In this document: positions 9,499 to 29,540 of the stretch, piece after piece
Numbering within the stretch: position 1 is the first letter of the stretch
Layout: each line of letters starts with the position of its first letter
Assembly: GCA_947036995.1 (NCBI GenBank)
Contig: CAMQTD010000007.1
Span: forward strand, 1-38,666
Direction: 5' to 3'
From: an uncultured Parabacteroides sp.
Lineage (GTDB): Bacteria > Bacteroidota > Bacteroidia > Bacteroidales > Tannerellaceae
DNA: 38,666 bases
Notes under the pieces: generated by a model
Database searches by the model: none
Told to the model about the DNA's origin: nothing
What the model saw: the letters and a program-made list of their open reading frames with translations, nothing else
Position numbers and translations under genes: made by a program

Positions 9499-10293
9499 AT
9501 GAAACAATATACTGATCTGTTAGAAAGAGTTCTTGCCGAAGGGGCAAAAAAAGAGGATCGCACAGGGACAGGCACAATCAGTGTGTTTGGTCACCAAATG
9601 CGTTTTAATTTAGAAGAGGGTTTCCCGATGCTTACTACAAAAAAGCTTCACCTTAAATCTATTATTCACGAATTACTTTGGTTCTTAAAGGGCGATACAA
9701 ACACCGCCTATCTACAAGAGCATGGTATCCGTATTTGGAATGAGTGGGCAGATGCATCTGGCGATTTAGGACATATATATGGTTATCAATGGCGTTCGTG
9801 GCCCGATTATAAAGGCGGCTCGATAGATCAAATAACGGAGGCTGTAAATACGATCAAAAACAACCCAGACTCGCGCCGCATTATTGTGAGTGCTTGGAAC
9901 GTGGGCGACTTAGATAATATGAACCTCCCTCCTTGCCACGCCTTTTTCCAATTTTATGTGGCAAACGGTAAATTAAGCTTACAACTCTACCAACGCAGTG
10001 CCGATATCTTCTTGGGTGTACCGTTCAATATTGCTTCGTACGCGCTACTCCTACAGATGATGGCGCAAGTAACAGGACTACAAGCAGGCGAATTTATCCA
10101 TACATTGGGAGATGCTCATATTTACTTAAATCACCTCGATCAAGTAAAACTACAGCTCTCGCGCGAAACACGCACACTGCCAACAATGACTATTAATCCT
10201 GACATTAAAGATATCTTTGATTTCAAATTCGAAGATTTCACCCTCGAAGGATATGATCCTCATCCACATATAAAGGGGATTGTGGCGGTTTAA
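9499..10293 (+). CDS. thyA: Thymidylate synthase
   Basis: [60 protein letters not shown]. Confidence 0.98.
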
Positions 10294-10308: not shown

Positions 10309-10361
10309 AAAAGATGCCCGTTAAATGAATTAATTGATAATTCATTTAACGGGCATCTTTT
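10309..10361. terminator. Bidirectional intrinsic terminator between thyA and the polyamine cluster
   Basis: Perfect 23-bp stem aaaagatgcccgttaaatgaatt / aattcatttaacgggcatctttt with 7-nt loop, between convergent genes. Confidence 0.88.
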
Positions 10362-10379: not shown

Positions 10380-10709
10380 TTATACTTTCTCGTCCTCTTG
10401 CCTCTCTATAATCACAAACTCCTCCTGAAACAACGCTACAAAACTTCTATTCATCTCCTTATTGCATCCGCTAAGTTCAATATAAGAACGGTTGCTTTCG
10501 GGGAATGTATGCACAGCTAAATGGCTCTCTGCCAATAGCCATAAGCACGTATATCCTTGAATAGGGAAGTTATGCGCTATTTGATTCAATATTGTGTAGC
10601 CTGAGGCTTCCAATATTGTTTGGAGCTTGCTGTGTAATATCTTAGGCTCAGTTTCATCAACCCATACTTGATAGTTATAGATTGATGGTTCTATATATTT
10701 ATATTCCAT
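10380..10709 (-). CDS. S-adenosylmethionine decarboxylase proenzyme family (SpeD/SpeH-like)
   Basis: LLAESHLAVHTFPESNRSYIELSGC: ESH...HTFPE signature containing the pyruvoyl-forming Ser. Confidence 0.88.
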   Translation of the reverse strand: MEYKYIEPSIYNYQVWVDETEPKILHSKLQTILEASGYTILNQIAHNFPIQGYTCLWLLAESHLAVHTFPESNRSYIELSGCNKEMNRSFVALFQEEFVIIERQEDEKV

Positions 10710-10713
10710 AGAT

Positions 10714-12261
10714 TTAGTATATTTCCCAATGACCCTCTAAGTAATACTTATATAATACAGGGTCATGTATTTTATTTACACGTATCTCTTTATTGCTTTT
10801 ATCGTAGAAGTCTTTTCCAAAAGAGGTGATCAGCAACATGGCATCGTTGTTAATCCACTCAGTTTCTACATTGTCAAAGGTAAGTGAACGTGTTGCCGTT
10901 TTTAGTTGATCGCTTGTAAGTGCTTTAGAACCGATAATCCAGCCCCATTCTCCCATTGTTAACACTTGGTTATGCATGGGGATAACACCAAAACCCGCTT
11001 CTGCCACTGTTTTCTTGATACAATTAAAGGCATCGATAGCATAATAGGGGCTGCCTGCTTGTGTTATAATAATTCCATTAGGACGCAAATGTCTATTGCA
11101 TAAACTGTAAAACTCTTGCGAATAGAGTCGCCCAAGTTCTACCGTTTTAGGATCGGTAAGATCAATGATTATAACATCGTAATAGGTTTTAATATCCTCT
11201 AAATACTTGTAGGCATCTTGATTGATGATATTAATACGTGCATCGTTCATTGCATTCTTGTTTAAGTCTACAATGATCGGATTCTTTTGCCCTAAGAGCG
11301 TCATAGCTGGATCAATATCGACAATATCAATGCTTTTTACGGAAGGATACTTAAACACTTCGCGTGCAGCACAACCATCTCCACCACCTAAAATCAAAAC
11401 ATTTTGAGGATGCTTTACCAACTGCATCGCAGGATGCACTAAGGGTTCGTGATACAATGCTTCATCGAACGAGCTTAACTGCTGGTTACCATCTAAGAAC
11501 AGCCAATGGTCGTTGTGCCATTTCGTGATAACAATCTTTTGGTAACGGCTCTGCTCTTCGTATACTATTTTATCCTTATAGCGATTTTGCTCACCATATA
11601 ATATAATTGGTTTTGCAAAGTATAGCCCAATCATTATAAGCGTAAATACCGCTGCTCCACCGTAGCCAAGCACACGTTTATTTGAAGCGCTTTGCTGTTT
11701 CCAAAGCATGGCAAGCACTACAATAGCAACCGTAAAGTTTAACAACCCGAGTACAAAAGGCGTATAGGTTAATCCTAAGAATGGTAATCCGATGAATGCA
11801 AAGAATATACCACCAATTAAACTTCCATAATAATCTTGCTCCATAATGCTCGACACATTGGAGCGTAGTGTCTCATTCTCTTCGTTAATCCGGATTACCA
11901 AAGGTATCTCCATACCGATAAACAGACCTACAAAAATAGATATTATATAAATAATAAATGCCGTATATTCAGTATAAGCCGCAGCTGTATACACAAGAAT
12001 AGAGGAGAATGCTACCGCTATGGATAAGAAAAACTCTACGCACAAAAATTTGCGTAGCAGGTTTTTCTTAAACAGTTTACTAACGCGACTACCTACACCC
12101 ATGGCAAACATCATTACAGACATCGTCATGGTCCATTGGAGTACCGAATCGCCTAAAAAGTATGTTGCCAGTGTCGATAATATACATTCAGCTACAATAC
12201 CAGACAGACCTGTAGCGAACATGGCAGCTTTTAAGACTGTCGATTTATTGTTTATTTTCAT
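10714..12261 (-). CDS. Membrane-anchored polyamine aminopropyltransferase (spermidine synthase-like; N-terminal multi-TM domain)
   Basis: N-terminal hydrophobic half; C-terminal VLILGGGDGCAAREVFKYPSVKSIDIVDIDPAM, DAYKYLEDIKTYYDVIIIDLTDPK, YSQEFYSLCNRHLRPNGIIITQAGSP. Confidence 0.9.
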   Translation of the reverse strand: MKINNKSTVLKAAMFATGLSGIVAECILSTLATYFLGDSVLQWTMTMSVMMFAMGVGSRVSKLFKKNLLRKFLCVEFFLSIAVAFSSILVYTAAAYTEYTAFIIYIISIFVGLFIGMEIPLVIRINEENETLRSNVSSIMEQDYYGSLIGGIFFAFIGLPFLGLTYTPFVLGLLNFTVAIVVLAMLWKQQSASNKRVLGYGGAAVFTLIMIGLYFAKPIILYGEQNRYKDKIVYEEQSRYQKIVITKWHNDHWLFLDGNQQLSSFDEALYHEPLVHPAMQLVKHPQNVLILGGGDGCAAREVFKYPSVKSIDIVDIDPAMTLLGQKNPIIVDLNKNAMNDARINIINQDAYKYLEDIKTYYDVIIIDLTDPKTVELGRLYSQEFYSLCNRHLRPNGIIITQAGSPYYAIDAFNCIKKTVAEAGFGVIPMHNQVLTMGEWGWIIGSKALTSDQLKTATRSLTFDNVETEWINNDAMLLITSFGKDFYDKSNKEIRVNKIHDPVLYKYYLEGHWEIY

Positions 12262-12299
12262 GCAAAAGAATCCTATGCAAGGATGTTAGATTAATTATT

Positions 12300-13226
12300 T
12301 TATATACACCAAGTAATAAGAATTGCACCACCGATGTAACTAAATGCTTCGATAAGTCCGGCACCTACATTTGCCTTCTCTTGGTTTACAAGTTCATCTG
12401 TAAGGTTTTGCCCTGGAAGTAAAATTTTGTCGGTAAGATATCTTGCTACGGGTAGTAATATAATACCAATAAGCATTTCAAATCCTACTTTTGTGAAGGT
12501 AGCTGTCCAACTCTCAAAGTCGCCCATCAGTGCATGATTTACAAGAATGGCAATCGCAACCAATGCGCCTGCAAAACCAAAACCTACAGCTACATTATCT
12601 TTCTCAATTTCGTCCAGTGCATTGTAAGGCAATATCTTATTGTAAAACCATGCCGTGAATATCATCAATACAATTCCGATAAACCAATACTGAAGCGTAT
12701 TAACAATCCCCATATAAGGAGCGTAAGAGAGGTAGTCACTCGATCCATCCACCATTGCCCACAGTGGAGCAATCGCATCGCCCGATACGGCACCGAAGAT
12801 AACCAATCCCGAAGCGATCGCACTTGCTGCTTCTACTAAGCCTGTACCTTCGTTGCGGTCTACGCAAATCTCTTTTTCGACAGAGAACTGACGCAAAATA
12901 ACTTTTGCATTGATAAAGATTGACATATTTAGCAGCAAGATAGAGAGTAAACCATAAATCAAGATATCAAAGATATCTGCTATCAGTCCGTTTGATTCTC
13001 CTACAATTGCTCCGCCAATAGCGATTAAAAGACCTGTAAAATAGCCTGTATGCGCAATGCTAAAGGCGAAGTTATCCTTTATAACCAATTCATCTTGCAC
13101 ATCAATCGTTGGGTGAAACAGTTGATACACACGTTTGCCTACCCAAAACAGGGAAAATGCTGTAAGTATATAAACAATCGCATTGAACGCATCGTTTAAA
13201 TAACTTGATTCTACTATATTATCCAT
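12300..13226 (-). CDS. Tandem DUF350 (YjfL-like) integral membrane protein
   Basis: Two similar halves: DNFAFSIAHTGYFTGLLIAIGGAIVG... / DNVAVGFGFAGALVAIAILVNHALMG..., each followed by ...GLVEAASAIASGLVIFGAV / ...GLIEAFSYIGGAILITWCI. Confidence 0.82.
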   Translation of the reverse strand: MDNIVESSYLNDAFNAIVYILTAFSLFWVGKRVYQLFHPTIDVQDELVIKDNFAFSIAHTGYFTGLLIAIGGAIVGESNGLIADIFDILIYGLLSILLLNMSIFINAKVILRQFSVEKEICVDRNEGTGLVEAASAIASGLVIFGAVSGDAIAPLWAMVDGSSDYLSYAPYMGIVNTLQYWFIGIVLMIFTAWFYNKILPYNALDEIEKDNVAVGFGFAGALVAIAILVNHALMGDFESWTATFTKVGFEMLIGIILLPVARYLTDKILLPGQNLTDELVNQEKANVGAGLIEAFSYIGGAILITWCI

Positions 13227-13240
13227 AAGTATAAACTGTA

Positions 13241-13987
13241 TTATTTACCAAAACCACCACCGCGCGAGCGATATGTGCTTGATGATGATCTACCTGTACG
13301 CGTTGACGAGCCACTACTTCTACTCACACGCCTTTGTACGCTTGATTTAAAAGCCGATTGAGATTTACCCCACGAGCTTGTTGTTCCCCTATTTTTCATC
13401 GTCGATGCAGTTCCGTAGGTTGTTCCGCCACTGGTACCATAGTAAGGGCGGTTTGTGTTACGGTAATTGCGAGAATAATCGTCATACGAGCCTCTGTTAA
13501 TTGGAGACATCATATTGAATAGCGAACTCATCATAGCATATTTACCATAAAACTCCCAAAAAGACGAACCTCCTCTGTTCGACCATTGTCCATATTGAGA
13601 ATTACCTACATATTGAGAGTAGCCAGCCGGAACAGCTGTTTTGCTTAACTTACCGTCTACCTTGCTCGCAATCTCCATGCCCATGTTATTCACATTGGCT
13701 TGGAAGAATTTACTTGATACATCTTTCCATCCTGTCTCTTTTACATCTATTTCACCATCTTTCTTGGGTGTAATAATTTGATATTTCTGGCGGTATATAT
13801 CCTTAGAGAATGTATTTTCTTCAAACTCCATATCATATAAGATGATCGAGAAGTTAGAGACATCATTCATCTCTTTAATCAATTCGTCGACTGGGCTTTT
13901 GGTGTTACTGTTTGGTGCTGATGTACACGACTTCAGCAGCAAACATACAAACAAACAGACGAACGCTATTTTTGCAAATTTATCCAT
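13241..13987 (-). CDS. Lipoprotein with SSFW segment and Ser/Arg/Gly-rich C-terminus (DUF1190/YgiB/YjfM-like architecture)
   Basis: Lipobox-like LLLKSCTSAP; GGSSFWEFYGKYAMMSSLFNMMSP; ends STYRSRGGGFGK. Confidence 0.6.
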   Translation of the reverse strand: MDKFAKIAFVCLFVCLLLKSCTSAPNSNTKSPVDELIKEMNDVSNFSIILYDMEFEENTFSKDIYRQKYQIITPKKDGEIDVKETGWKDVSSKFFQANVNNMGMEIASKVDGKLSKTAVPAGYSQYVGNSQYGQWSNRGGSSFWEFYGKYAMMSSLFNMMSPINRGSYDDYSRNYRNTNRPYYGTSGGTTYGTASTMKNRGTTSSWGKSQSAFKSSVQRRVSRSSGSSTRTGRSSSSTYRSRGGGFGK

Positions 13988-13990
13988 ATT

Positions 13991-14536
13991 CTAGTTTTTA
14001 TTAGGGAGTATATTCGATATCTCGTACTCCTCTATATTTTTACCTACAGCAGCTTCGAACTCAAAATCGCCCCAACGTTCAATACACAGAATATCTTCTC
14101 CTGCTTTATCCTCATAATCCCAAGAGATTAATTCTGCCCACTCCTCAGAGCCTAGTTCGTTGAAGTAACCCGGGTTTTCAGACTCCAAGAAATAGTCTTT
14201 ACCGTTGTATGTTATCTTACTTGGTGCTTTCTCGTTTTTAGCAATATATTCTGGAATATCTTCGCCGAGCACACGTACTTTTACTTTTTCAGTAAGTGAT
14301 AAGAAGAGTTCATCATCATCCTCTACGCTTAGAAATAGTACCCGATTGCCATCCGAAATTTTATATTCCGATGTAAAATAGTCGTCTCCCCAGTCGTATT
14401 GCGAAGCCTCTTGTACCTCCCATGTTGATAGATCGTACTCAAAAATAAACCCTACTTGCAGATCTAAAACTGTAATATTTGAAACATCGTACGTCGATTC
14501 AGTTTCTTTTTTCTTAAAAAAGTCGAACAATCCCAT
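13991..14536 (-). CDS. DUF4178 (YjfK-like) protein
   Basis: MGLFDFFKKKETE... acidic beta-rich domain; the in-frame ATG at 14536 is the better start than the tracked 14581 because the upstream hairpin overlaps the longer version. Confidence 0.72.
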   Translation of the reverse strand: MGLFDFFKKKETESTYDVSNITVLDLQVGFIFEYDLSTWEVQEASQYDWGDDYFTSEYKISDGNRVLFLSVEDDDELFLSLTEKVKVRVLGEDIPEYIAKNEKAPSKITYNGKDYFLESENPGYFNELGSEEWAELISWDYEDKAGEDILCIERWGDFEFEAAVGKNIEEYEISNILPNKN

Positions 14537-14561
14537 GCCTTCTTTATTTATTAAAACGAAA

Positions 14562-14597
14562 AAATAGCGCACCAGCATCAATGCCAGTGCGCTATTT
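14562..14597 (-). terminator. Strong terminator-like hairpin between the PspA and DUF4178 genes
   Basis: Reverse strand AAATAGCGCACTGGCA-TTGA-TGCTGGTGCGCTATTT followed by TTTCGTTTT; about 16-bp stem with tetraloop and T-rich tail. Confidence 0.75.
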
Positions 14598-14605
14598 CTT
14601 ATGCA

Positions 14606-15301
14606 TTATTTTTTCATTTTTGCTTTAAGCGCAGCCAAAGCATCAGATCCATTTGGTGAAGAACCTAACACGCTGTCAATCTCATCATCTAAAGAAGATG
14701 GTTGCCCAGCAATATCGCCATAAGCCTCAGCCAAAGCTTCGTCTTGGTCTACTTTCTCTTTCATTCTTTCAAGCATCGAAATAGTGCCCGAGCTATCAAC
14801 GTTAGACAATGATTTATTCAATTTCTTTGTTGCAGCCGAAACACTTGCACGTGCTTTAAGCGTTTTCAGTTCGTTTTCGTACTTCGTAATTGCCGAACGA
14901 AGTTTCATTACATTGGCATCCAACTGTCTGATATTCTTATCAAACATCTCTGTGTCGCGTTGATTGCGAACCACATCTTGGTCTACACTCTCTTTGCGTG
15001 CTAAAACTTCTGTTGCTAAACGGTCTGCATCTTCTACCGATACCTCGCCACGTTCTGCTTTCTGTACCAATTGAATTGCTTTAGCTTCGTAGTTTTGTGA
15101 TTGGTTCTTTGATGTTTCCAAATCACGCTTCGAACGTATAGCAGCAGCTTTAACCTCTGCTAAGGCTTGAAGGCTATTATCTAAATCTTTTTTTAAGTCT
15201 CTAATTCCTTGCTCTGCAAGTTTAATTGGGTTTTCCAATTTATCAACAACAGAGTTAGCCTCTGCTTGTCCTACTTTAAATATTCTACTAAATAATCCCA
15301 T
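14606..15301 (-). CDS. PspA/IM30 family protein (YjfJ-like)
   Basis: MGLFSRIFKVGQAEANSVVDKLENPIKLAEQGIRDLKKDLDNSLQALAEVKAAAIRS... long coiled coil, PspA_IM30 pattern. Confidence 0.92.
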   Translation of the reverse strand: MGLFSRIFKVGQAEANSVVDKLENPIKLAEQGIRDLKKDLDNSLQALAEVKAAAIRSKRDLETSKNQSQNYEAKAIQLVQKAERGEVSVEDADRLATEVLARKESVDQDVVRNQRDTEMFDKNIRQLDANVMKLRSAITKYENELKTLKARASVSAATKKLNKSLSNVDSSGTISMLERMKEKVDQDEALAEAYGDIAGQPSSLDDEIDSVLGSSPNGSDALAALKAKMKK

Positions 15302-15326
15302 ATTATTGTTTATTCTTTTGCTTAAA

Positions 15327-15719
15327 TTAATTTGCTAATTTTACTAACTGTGCCGAAAACTCGCTCAACAGAAGCTCTAGTGAGTTTAATGTTGCTTGAA
15401 GCTCGTTCAAATCAAGATTCTCTAATTGTAATGTATCTCTGAAAATAACTTTCTTGCCTGTTTCGTCCAAAACAAATGCGCCATGCACTATTTCACGATT
15501 GATTTGCAGGAGCGTTTTGTAGGCTGCCGCATGCTCTACATTGATATCGAACATATATTGTTCGACAATCAAAATAGGATCTTCGCAATCAATAACTAAG
15601 TTATAGATGCCTCCATCCGTACTATTTACAATAAAAATAGACTCTTGCTCGTCAATAGAGATAATATCATAATCAAGCTCTATTAAATACGCTTTTACTT
15701 TATCAAAATATTGATCCAT
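15327..15719 (-). CDS. Small YbjN/DUF2170 (YjfI)-like protein, first gene of the PspA/polyamine cluster
   Basis: MDQYFDKVKAYLIELDYDIISIDEQESIFIVNSTDGGIYNLVIDCEDPILIVEQYMF...; assignment rests on fold-like pattern and position. Confidence 0.5.
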   Translation of the reverse strand: MDQYFDKVKAYLIELDYDIISIDEQESIFIVNSTDGGIYNLVIDCEDPILIVEQYMFDINVEHAAAYKTLLQINREIVHGAFVLDETGKKVIFRDTLQLENLDLNELQATLNSLELLLSEFSAQLVKLAN

Positions 15720-16177: not shown

Positions 16178-16672
16178 ATGAGTATTATTTCAATCATTGC
16201 TGCAGTGGCAGAAAATAACGCTATCGGTAAACAGCAACAACTGTTGTGTTACTTGCCTTTAGACCTCAAACGATTCAAAGCCATTACCATGGGTAAAGCA
16301 ATCGTGATGGGACGCAAAACATTTGAATCGCTTCCGAACGGAGCACTTCCGAAACGGAAGAATGTAATACTAACCTCGCTACACGAAGAGGGGTATGTAG
16401 ATTCTTTCGTATGTCAATCTCTCGAAGAAGCACTTACGCTGTGCGAAAAAGAGGAAGAGGTATTTATTATTGGTGGTGCATCCGTATATACACAAGCAAT
16501 GCCGATGGCAAATAAGTTGTATCTTACACGCATTCATCATGCTTTTGAAGATGCTGATACATTTTTCCCTGAGATCAATTTTGCTGAGTGGAAAGAGGTG
16601 GAAAAAGAAGTTTTCGAGGCAGATGAGAAGCATGCCTATGCTTTTACATTCTACACTTACGAGCGACTTTAG
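16178..16672 (+). CDS. folA: Dihydrofolate reductase
   Basis: MSIISIIAAVAENNAIGKQQQLLCYLPLDLKRFKAITMGKAIVMGRKTFESLP...VFIIGGASVY. Confidence 0.97.
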   Translation: MSIISIIAAVAENNAIGKQQQLLCYLPLDLKRFKAITMGKAIVMGRKTFESLPNGALPKRKNVILTSLHEEGYVDSFVCQSLEEALTLCEKEEEVFIIGGASVYTQAMPMANKLYLTRIHHAFEDADTFFPEINFAEWKEVEKEVFEADEKHAYAFTFYTYERL

Positions 16673-29192: not shown

Positions 29193-29336
29193 TGCCCGTT
29201 CGTTTAATGTTAATTAAATCGGCTTATGGATATAGCAGTACTGCGAAGAAAGTATAAAGGGGGCGTTATGCTAACACACCTTTGACAACTGAATTCGTAG
29301 ACTTTTTACCCGAAAGCCAATAAAAACAAATATGCA

Positions 29337-29490
29337 AAGGCAGGTCTTCTGACTTATTCCTACTTTAACGCCTTCCCGACTTACAAAGTCAGTGGCACAA
29401 ATTGTTAAAGTATTTTTACCCTAAAAATAAGGGTAGGAACTTACAGCAGCGGGAACTGTCCGGGATTTACACCCGATTCCCTTTTAATTC
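29337..29490 (-). ncRNA. Cobalamin (adenosylcobalamin-type) riboswitch
   Basis: Reverse strand: GGGAATCGGGTGTAAATCCCGGACAGTTCCCGCTGCTGTAAG...TGCCACTGACTTTGTAAGTCGGGAAGGC...AGTCAGAAGACCTGCC, i.e. the conserved B12-box core and flanks. Confidence 0.96.
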
Positions 29491-29532
29491 CGTTGTGAAA
29501 AGTTATCCACAACATAGAAACCAAAGCAGCGG

Positions 29533-29540
29533 CAAAGCTA
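29533..29540 (-). promoter_or_regulatory. Bacteroidetes -7-type motif TAGCTTTG upstream of the cobalamin riboswitch
   Basis: caaagcta on the + strand, about 43 nt upstream of the riboswitch core. No clear -33 TTTG. Confidence 0.4.

Follow-up and report, generated by a model that had tools for sequence, protein, structure and literature searches.

Gene content of the locus

Analysis of a 38,666-nt stretch of DNA from an uncultured Parabacteroides sp. (contig CAMQTD010000007.1; hereafter the window) uncovered a module of seven consecutive minus-strand open reading frames (ORFs) at 10380-15719, in which an S-adenosylmethionine (AdoMet) decarboxylase, SpeD, and an aminopropyltransferase (APT) fused to seven transmembrane (7TM) segments, hereafter TM-SpeE, are encoded together with PspA, DUF350 and DUF4178 proteins. 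All seven ORFs of an initial annotation made from the sequence were confirmed, and in order of transcription they encode CesT_Tir_1/YbjN, PspA, DUF4178, a lipoprotein, tandem DUF350, TM-SpeE and SpeD. Pfam and NCBIfam profiles back every assignment except that of the lipoprotein, including the PspA, DUF4178, tandem DUF350, aminopropyltransferase and AdoMet decarboxylase calls of that annotation. It had also described the cluster as fused; the genes are indeed clustered, but no protein fusion exists beyond TM-SpeE itself.

The first gene (15327-15719) encodes a CesT/Tir-YbjN-like putative chaperone; of its initial label, YbjN/DUF2170-like, the YbjN part holds (PF10722, 4.6e-8), but the top family is CesT_Tir_1 (PF22550, 7.7e-52) and not DUF2170. 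The second encodes an ESCRT-III-like membrane remodelling protein of the PspA/IM30 family (14606-15301), whose match to PF04012 (PspA_IM30; 4.2e-42) scores 144.7 bits against a gathering score of 33.9. A 19-pair terminator-like hairpin (14559-14600, minus strand) parts this CesT-PspA dyad from the other genes. Because the hairpin occupies 14600-14559, the most probable start codon of the DUF4178 protein (13991-14536; PF13785, 4.6e-24) is the ATG at 14536, not the TTG at 14581, and the protein then has 181 amino acids (aa), like relative L007. The tandem DUF350 gene (12300-13226) encodes a YjfL-like membrane protein with eight transmembrane (8TM) segments, matched by PF03994 in two stretches (1.8e-52); its AlphaFold model, with a mean predicted local distance difference test (pLDDT) score of 48.5, was not used. 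TM-SpeE (10714-12261) joins seven hydrophobic segments (approximately residues 13-217) to a C-terminal aminopropyltransferase domain with intact GGGDG, DxxDP and YHE motifs, and SpeD (10380-10709) is a class 1b AdoMet decarboxylase (PF02675, 6.3e-14) whose processing and catalytic Ser, His and Cys are intact.

The lipoprotein (13241-13987) has no significant family in a Pfam search. Its gene sits in the slot expected for the Ctha_1186 type and is conserved across 10 loci, and the product probably belongs to the Ctha_1186 type described by Ravi et al. 2024. Alignment of the 10 sequences shows invariant C-terminal Arg, Ser, Gly and terminal Lys residues in an RSR-GG-FGK-like ending, possibly a modification or docking tail. 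A similar ending, RGGGPTFGK, is found in the DUF4247 lipoprotein of a Clostridiales cluster (L009, 7943-8455), and one relative (L008, 1082-1837) has no cysteine after its hydrophobic N-terminus and is perhaps membrane-anchored rather than lipidated.

Probable insertion between thyA and folA

The module is bounded on the left by thyA (9499-10293, plus strand; PF00303, 3.4e-127) and on the right by folA (16178-16672, plus strand; PF00186, 4.4e-59), and a perfect 20-pair bidirectional terminator-like hairpin (10312-10358) closes its speD end against thyA. In 29/29 same-family relatives where both genes are readable, thyA and folA are direct neighbours with the same orientation, 15-125 bp apart; in the window they lie 5888 bp apart, with exactly the seven module genes between them in antisense orientation. 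Since the relatives have an empty site where the window has seven genes, the module was probably inserted whole, SpeD included.

TM-SpeE was found in 0/59 other genomes sampled from the family. In a TM-SpeE tree, the nearest neighbours of the window protein come from two contigs of uncultured Bacteroidota, at 86% and 80% identity, and the next ones from genomes that lie outside the class. The module was apparently acquired horizontally. Composition gives no sign of transfer (third-position GC 0.363 in the module vs 0.364 in other window genes), which leaves the empty site and the patchy distribution as the grounds for it; the event would be old or the donor of similar composition. Around the insertion boundaries, a search for bracketing repeats found only chance-level 9-mers.

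Co-occurrence of SpeD, TM-SpeE, DUF350 and DUF4178

Among 398 surveyed Bacteroidota genomes, TM-SpeE was called above the model's cut-off in 29. SpeD is present in all 29 of these vs 51/369 genomes without TM-SpeE (Fisher p ~5e-23, with genomes treated as independent, though related genomes are not), and in 24/29 it lies <=3.5 kb from TM-SpeE. In four of the five exceptions to this distance (G064, G125, G146 and G407) SpeD lies elsewhere in the genome in a long frame of 366-446 aa; three of the four frames also contain a soluble SpeE match. Fusions of SpeD to soluble SpeE occur in 10/398 genomes, fusions to TM-SpeE in 0/29; the single-frame SpeD-SpeE fusions are those of G064, G090, G100, G146, G248, G267, G334, G382, G407 and G426.

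The gene-neighbourhood survey bears out the co-conservation expected in the initial annotation. The grouping is far from chance, because DUF4178 occurs in 31/33 and DUF350 in 30/33 of the surveyed TM-SpeE loci. Together these data support that SpeD and the aminopropyltransferase form a pair that is part of the module and is tied by genomic context to PspA, DUF350 and DUF4178. One plasmid locus (L132, 5944-12602; Alteromonas mediterranea pAMCP48-600) carries TM-SpeE, SpeD, a hypothetical protein, a "toxic anion resistance protein", DUF4178, a lipoprotein-like protein and DUF350 in one run; here a toxic-anion-resistance (TelA-type) protein seems to replace PspA.

Enzyme chemistry and the host's own spermidine route

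TM-SpeE scores 555.4 bits against NF002956 (PRK03612), above the equivalog cut-off of 472, matches PF01564 (Spermine_synth) at 4e-40, and has a predicted fold that matches aminopropyltransferases. Y270-H271-E272, the GGGxG glycines, D367, D370 and Q401 are invariant across 24 aligned TM-SpeE sequences. On the acceptor side, the Tyr-Pro-Ser of putrescine-type spermidine synthases is replaced by a P-S/T-F/M-G-x-W-G loop (LTMGEWGW in the window protein, PSFGEWG family-wide). When the family profile was compared with solved enzymes, the best matches were the Thermus thermophilus triamine/agmatine APT and thermospermine synthase (187-189 bits), with 126 bits for human and 141 bits for Escherichia coli spermidine synthase (SpdSyn). 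The different loop and these best-scoring relatives together suggest an acceptor other than putrescine.

SpeD reaches 52.7 bits against PF02675 (gathering score 25) and falls below the TIGR03330 equivalog cut-off (46.5 vs 75.65 bits). Its S63, H68 and C83 align with the catalytic residues of Thermotoga maritima AdoMet decarboxylase (AdoMetDC), all of which are kept; over residues 25-88 the reference sequence used is the same as in the PDB entry. SpeD also retains the proline that separates AdoMetDC from arginine decarboxylase (ADC) forms, by residue criteria taken from PMC10407285. In four sister clusters of the type B described below (L073, L074, L075 and L088), the equivalent of Cys83 is Ser, with Ser63 and His68 kept.

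Genes for an arginine decarboxylase-like protein, an agmatinase (above the TIGR01230 cut-off), a carboxynorspermidine decarboxylase (CASDC; above the TIGR01047 cut-off) and a CASDH-like protein are grouped on host contig C149; the last, a carboxynorspermidine-synthase-like protein, scores 404.7 of 800 bits against NF043000. The route from arginine decarboxylase and agmatinase through carboxynorspermidine synthase and CASDC makes spermidine without decarboxylated AdoMet (dcAdoMet). Judged by its gene complement, the host does not need the SpeD/TM-SpeE pair for spermidine, because its genes encode this dcAdoMet-independent route. No aminopropyltransferase other than TM-SpeE was found in the host assembly, which is 80% complete; a second Spermine_synth match was rejected as a 256-aa ordinary methyltransferase-like ORF beside an S-adenosylhomocysteine-hydrolase-like ORF, as judged by eye from the sequence.

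Predicted membrane side of TM-SpeE

Mean lysine/arginine density across the 24 aligned TM-SpeE sequences is 0.18 for the N-terminus together with the loops that follow segments 2, 4 and 6, vs 0.04 after segments 1, 3 and 5. The direction of this bias is the same in 24/24 sequences and in 7/7 further ones from Pseudomonadota and Gemmatimonadota, where it is weaker in some (31/31 in all). Combined with seven hydrophobic segments, the bias predicts an N-terminus inside and an enzyme domain outside the cytoplasm. A profile of the N-terminal 7TM region found no match among PDB sequences up to E=1.

A flavin amine oxidase gene adjoins TM-SpeE in 15 of the surveyed sister clusters. Eleven of the 14 oxidase N-termini inspected carry an RR motif of the twin-arginine translocation (Tat) type and three an RK variant; in most a hydrophobic stretch comes next, and in several a lipobox-like cysteine follows. 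Amine oxidases from other phyla have RR in 3/4 cases. The lack of SpeD fusions to TM-SpeE, set beside the ten fusions to soluble SpeE, also fits an enzyme domain outside the cytoplasm. The charge bias and the Tat-type oxidases of sister clusters together suggest that aminopropyl transfer is extracytoplasmic; we put the chance that the enzyme domain of TM-SpeE lies on the outer side at somewhere between a third and a half.

Comparison with known systems

Ravi et al. 2024 described a 6-7 gene CesT/Tir-PspA operon and proposed a polyamine link (PMC11237479), the published linkage of PspA, DUF350 and spermidine-synthase genes to which the initial annotation alluded. The gene association itself is not new. 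The window shares with their group 2 (e.g. AAN56744-AAN56747) the CesT/Tir and PspA tandem dyad, DUF4178, an 8TM DUF350 protein and a spermidine-synthase domain with an N-terminal 7TM region, and a lipoprotein-like gene sits in the slot that Ctha_1186 has in the Ravi operon. It differs in ending on speD, whereas their description names a ribbon-helix-helix (RHH) regulator as the occasional last gene; they also mention variants with an AdoMet decarboxylase and a polyamine oxidase (PMC11237479).

Type-B Bacteroidota clusters have the SpeD/DUF4178/DUF350/TM-SpeE core in common with the module. They consist of SpeD, a long DUF4178, a short DUF350, TM-SpeE and an apparently exported Tat-type flavin amine oxidase; unlike in the module, no PspA or CesT was found and the oxidase is added. 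Li et al. 2019 (Biochem J 476:2579) reportedly described SpeD with MFS/TM-SpdSyn fusions and is cited as showing that such membrane-fused SpeE-like proteins do not make spermidine. According to a 2025 paper that cites this work (PMC12803844), the bacterial fusions of membrane proteins with APTs have no part in making spermidine or spermine, and the module resembles such cases in that an AdoMet decarboxylase is genetically linked to a membrane-fused SpeE-like protein.

The initial annotation drew a parallel with E. coli yjfIJKLMC, an operon whose yjfIJKL genes are upregulated in heat-evolved strains (PMC12492005). The general plan is alike, with a leading chaperone-like gene, a PspA-family gene, DUF350, a lipoprotein-type gene and a spermidine-related last gene (yjfC, annotated as a peptide-spermidine ligase). 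In terms of families the parallel is limited: the E. coli order (DUF2170, PspA, DUF2491, DUF350, DUF1190, ATP-grasp) is not found in the window, and only PspA and DUF350 are common to both, since yjfI is DUF2170 where the module has CesT_Tir_1, yjfK is DUF2491 and not DUF4178, yjfM is DUF1190, and neither SpeD nor SpeE is present. In Pseudomonas aeruginosa, the text consulted on PA4773-PA4774 (speD2-speE2) links this SpeD/SpeE pair to surface spermidine and outer-membrane protection (PMC3572637). It is likewise a pair serving the cell surface, but is controlled by PmrAB, and PspA, DUF350 and DUF4178 partners are not mentioned in that text; we regard it as a precedent for purpose, not mechanism. 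A literature search on Mycobacterium Rv2599-Rv2601 gave a single paper, which was not relevant.

Rfam revealed no riboswitch control of the operon, its sole match being a cobalamin riboswitch elsewhere in the window (29322-29540, minus strand; 92.9 bits) that has no connection with the PspA operon. An anti-phage defence reading was rejected, as PADLOC gave only a mad2 match through a shared methyltransferase-like fold and PspA coiled-coil matches.

Discussion

The module is real and intact, and its operon type has been published but not characterised. The explanation that we consider best, at a little under even chances, is that it is a horizontally acquired PspA-type envelope module that aminopropylates an acceptor other than a bulk polyamine. 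Gene content, intact catalytic residues, the dependence of TM-SpeE on SpeD, insertion of the whole module and host genes for a separate spermidine route are what the data show; the membrane side, the acceptor, the transport role of DUF350 and a role in envelope stress are inferred. Cytosolic SpeD would decarboxylate AdoMet to the aminopropyl donor dcAdoMet, and membrane-anchored TM-SpeE would transfer the aminopropyl group to an acceptor other than bulk putrescine or spermidine at or beyond the inner membrane, most likely at its outer face. DUF350, the 7TM domain or both may provide a passage for donor or product, and PspA together with the CesT-like protein, DUF4178 and the lipoprotein would couple aminopropyl transfer to membrane integrity or damage. 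YjfL, a DUF350 protein, has been modelled as a channel-like hexamer (PMC12492005). More tentatively, dcAdoMet from SpeD may be passed across the membrane by DUF350 or the 7TM domain, aminopropylating a lipid, lipoprotein or periplasmic amine in a PspA envelope-protection response.

Several points weigh against transfer on the outer side. In the AlphaFold model, built with five sequences (mean pLDDT 74.6), TM5 and TM6 merge into one helix (residues 133-185), which would leave six spans and place the enzyme domain in the cytosol, the compartment in which dcAdoMet arises. For an enzyme that uses dcAdoMet in the periplasm, the donor would have to be exported by a route as yet unproven, and we know of no dcAdoMet export. 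PspA is cytosolic, the CesT-like and DUF4178 proteins are predicted to be so, and the window itself has no amine oxidase. The case for separate spermidine synthesis has weaknesses of its own: the host assembly is in 226 contigs at the completeness given above, contig C149 could be misbinned, and none of the other 28 TM-SpeE genomes has CASDC, which makes the argument specific to this host.

Two other readings keep the chemistry on the cytosolic side. In the first, which we judge unlikely but not negligible, a dedicated aminopropylated small molecule, lipid or protein that is not a polyamine is made there and acts on the envelope. The similarity of TM-SpeE to triamine/agmatine and thermospermine enzymes, its altered acceptor loop and the RefSeq name of YjfC at the end of the E. 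coli cousin operon ("peptide--spermidine ligase") fit such a product, but the topology evidence points outward. In the second, slightly less probable still, the enzyme domain of TM-SpeE is on the cytoplasmic side and produces spermidine, or a polyamine related to it, at the inner leaflet, and PspA-based membrane dynamics respond to the polyamine level. This is the model of Ravi et al. 2024, in whose proposal the system senses how much polyamine is present or whether aminopropylation takes place (PMC11237479), and in part that of the initial annotation. NF002956, matched above its cut-off, is named "polyamine aminopropyltransferase", the catalytic residues of both enzymes are intact and the donor is cytosolic; against this stand the host's separate route, the statement on bacterial fusions in PMC12803844, the charge bias and the exported amine-oxidase partners. 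What had been called a complete polyamine-synthesis pair survives as a catalytically intact pair within the module, but polyamine synthesis as its task is disfavoured by the host route, the acceptor loop and PMC12803844, which cites Li et al.

It is very improbable that the pair is repurposed or dead, with SpeD an arginine/ornithine decarboxylase or both proteins structural: SpeD is divergent by its TIGR03330 score and AdoMetDC neofunctionalisation is documented (PMC10407285), but SpeD keeps all catalytic residues and the AdoMetDC-specific proline, and its presence in 29/29 TM-SpeE genomes fits a donor-transferase pair.

What is new here is the host-specific evidence against a spermidine role, the empty-site evidence that speD travels with the module, the co-occurrence of SpeD with TM-SpeE, and the topology argument. 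Aminopropylation of an envelope acceptor offers a concrete hypothesis, open to testing, for the PspA/DUF350/DUF4178 system, which is widespread but has no explained function, and for SpeD enzymes that reportedly take no part in making polyamines. If the aminopropyl group is indeed transferred outside the cytoplasm, dcAdoMet would have an unexpected use, and bacteria another, new way to place positive charge on the envelope.

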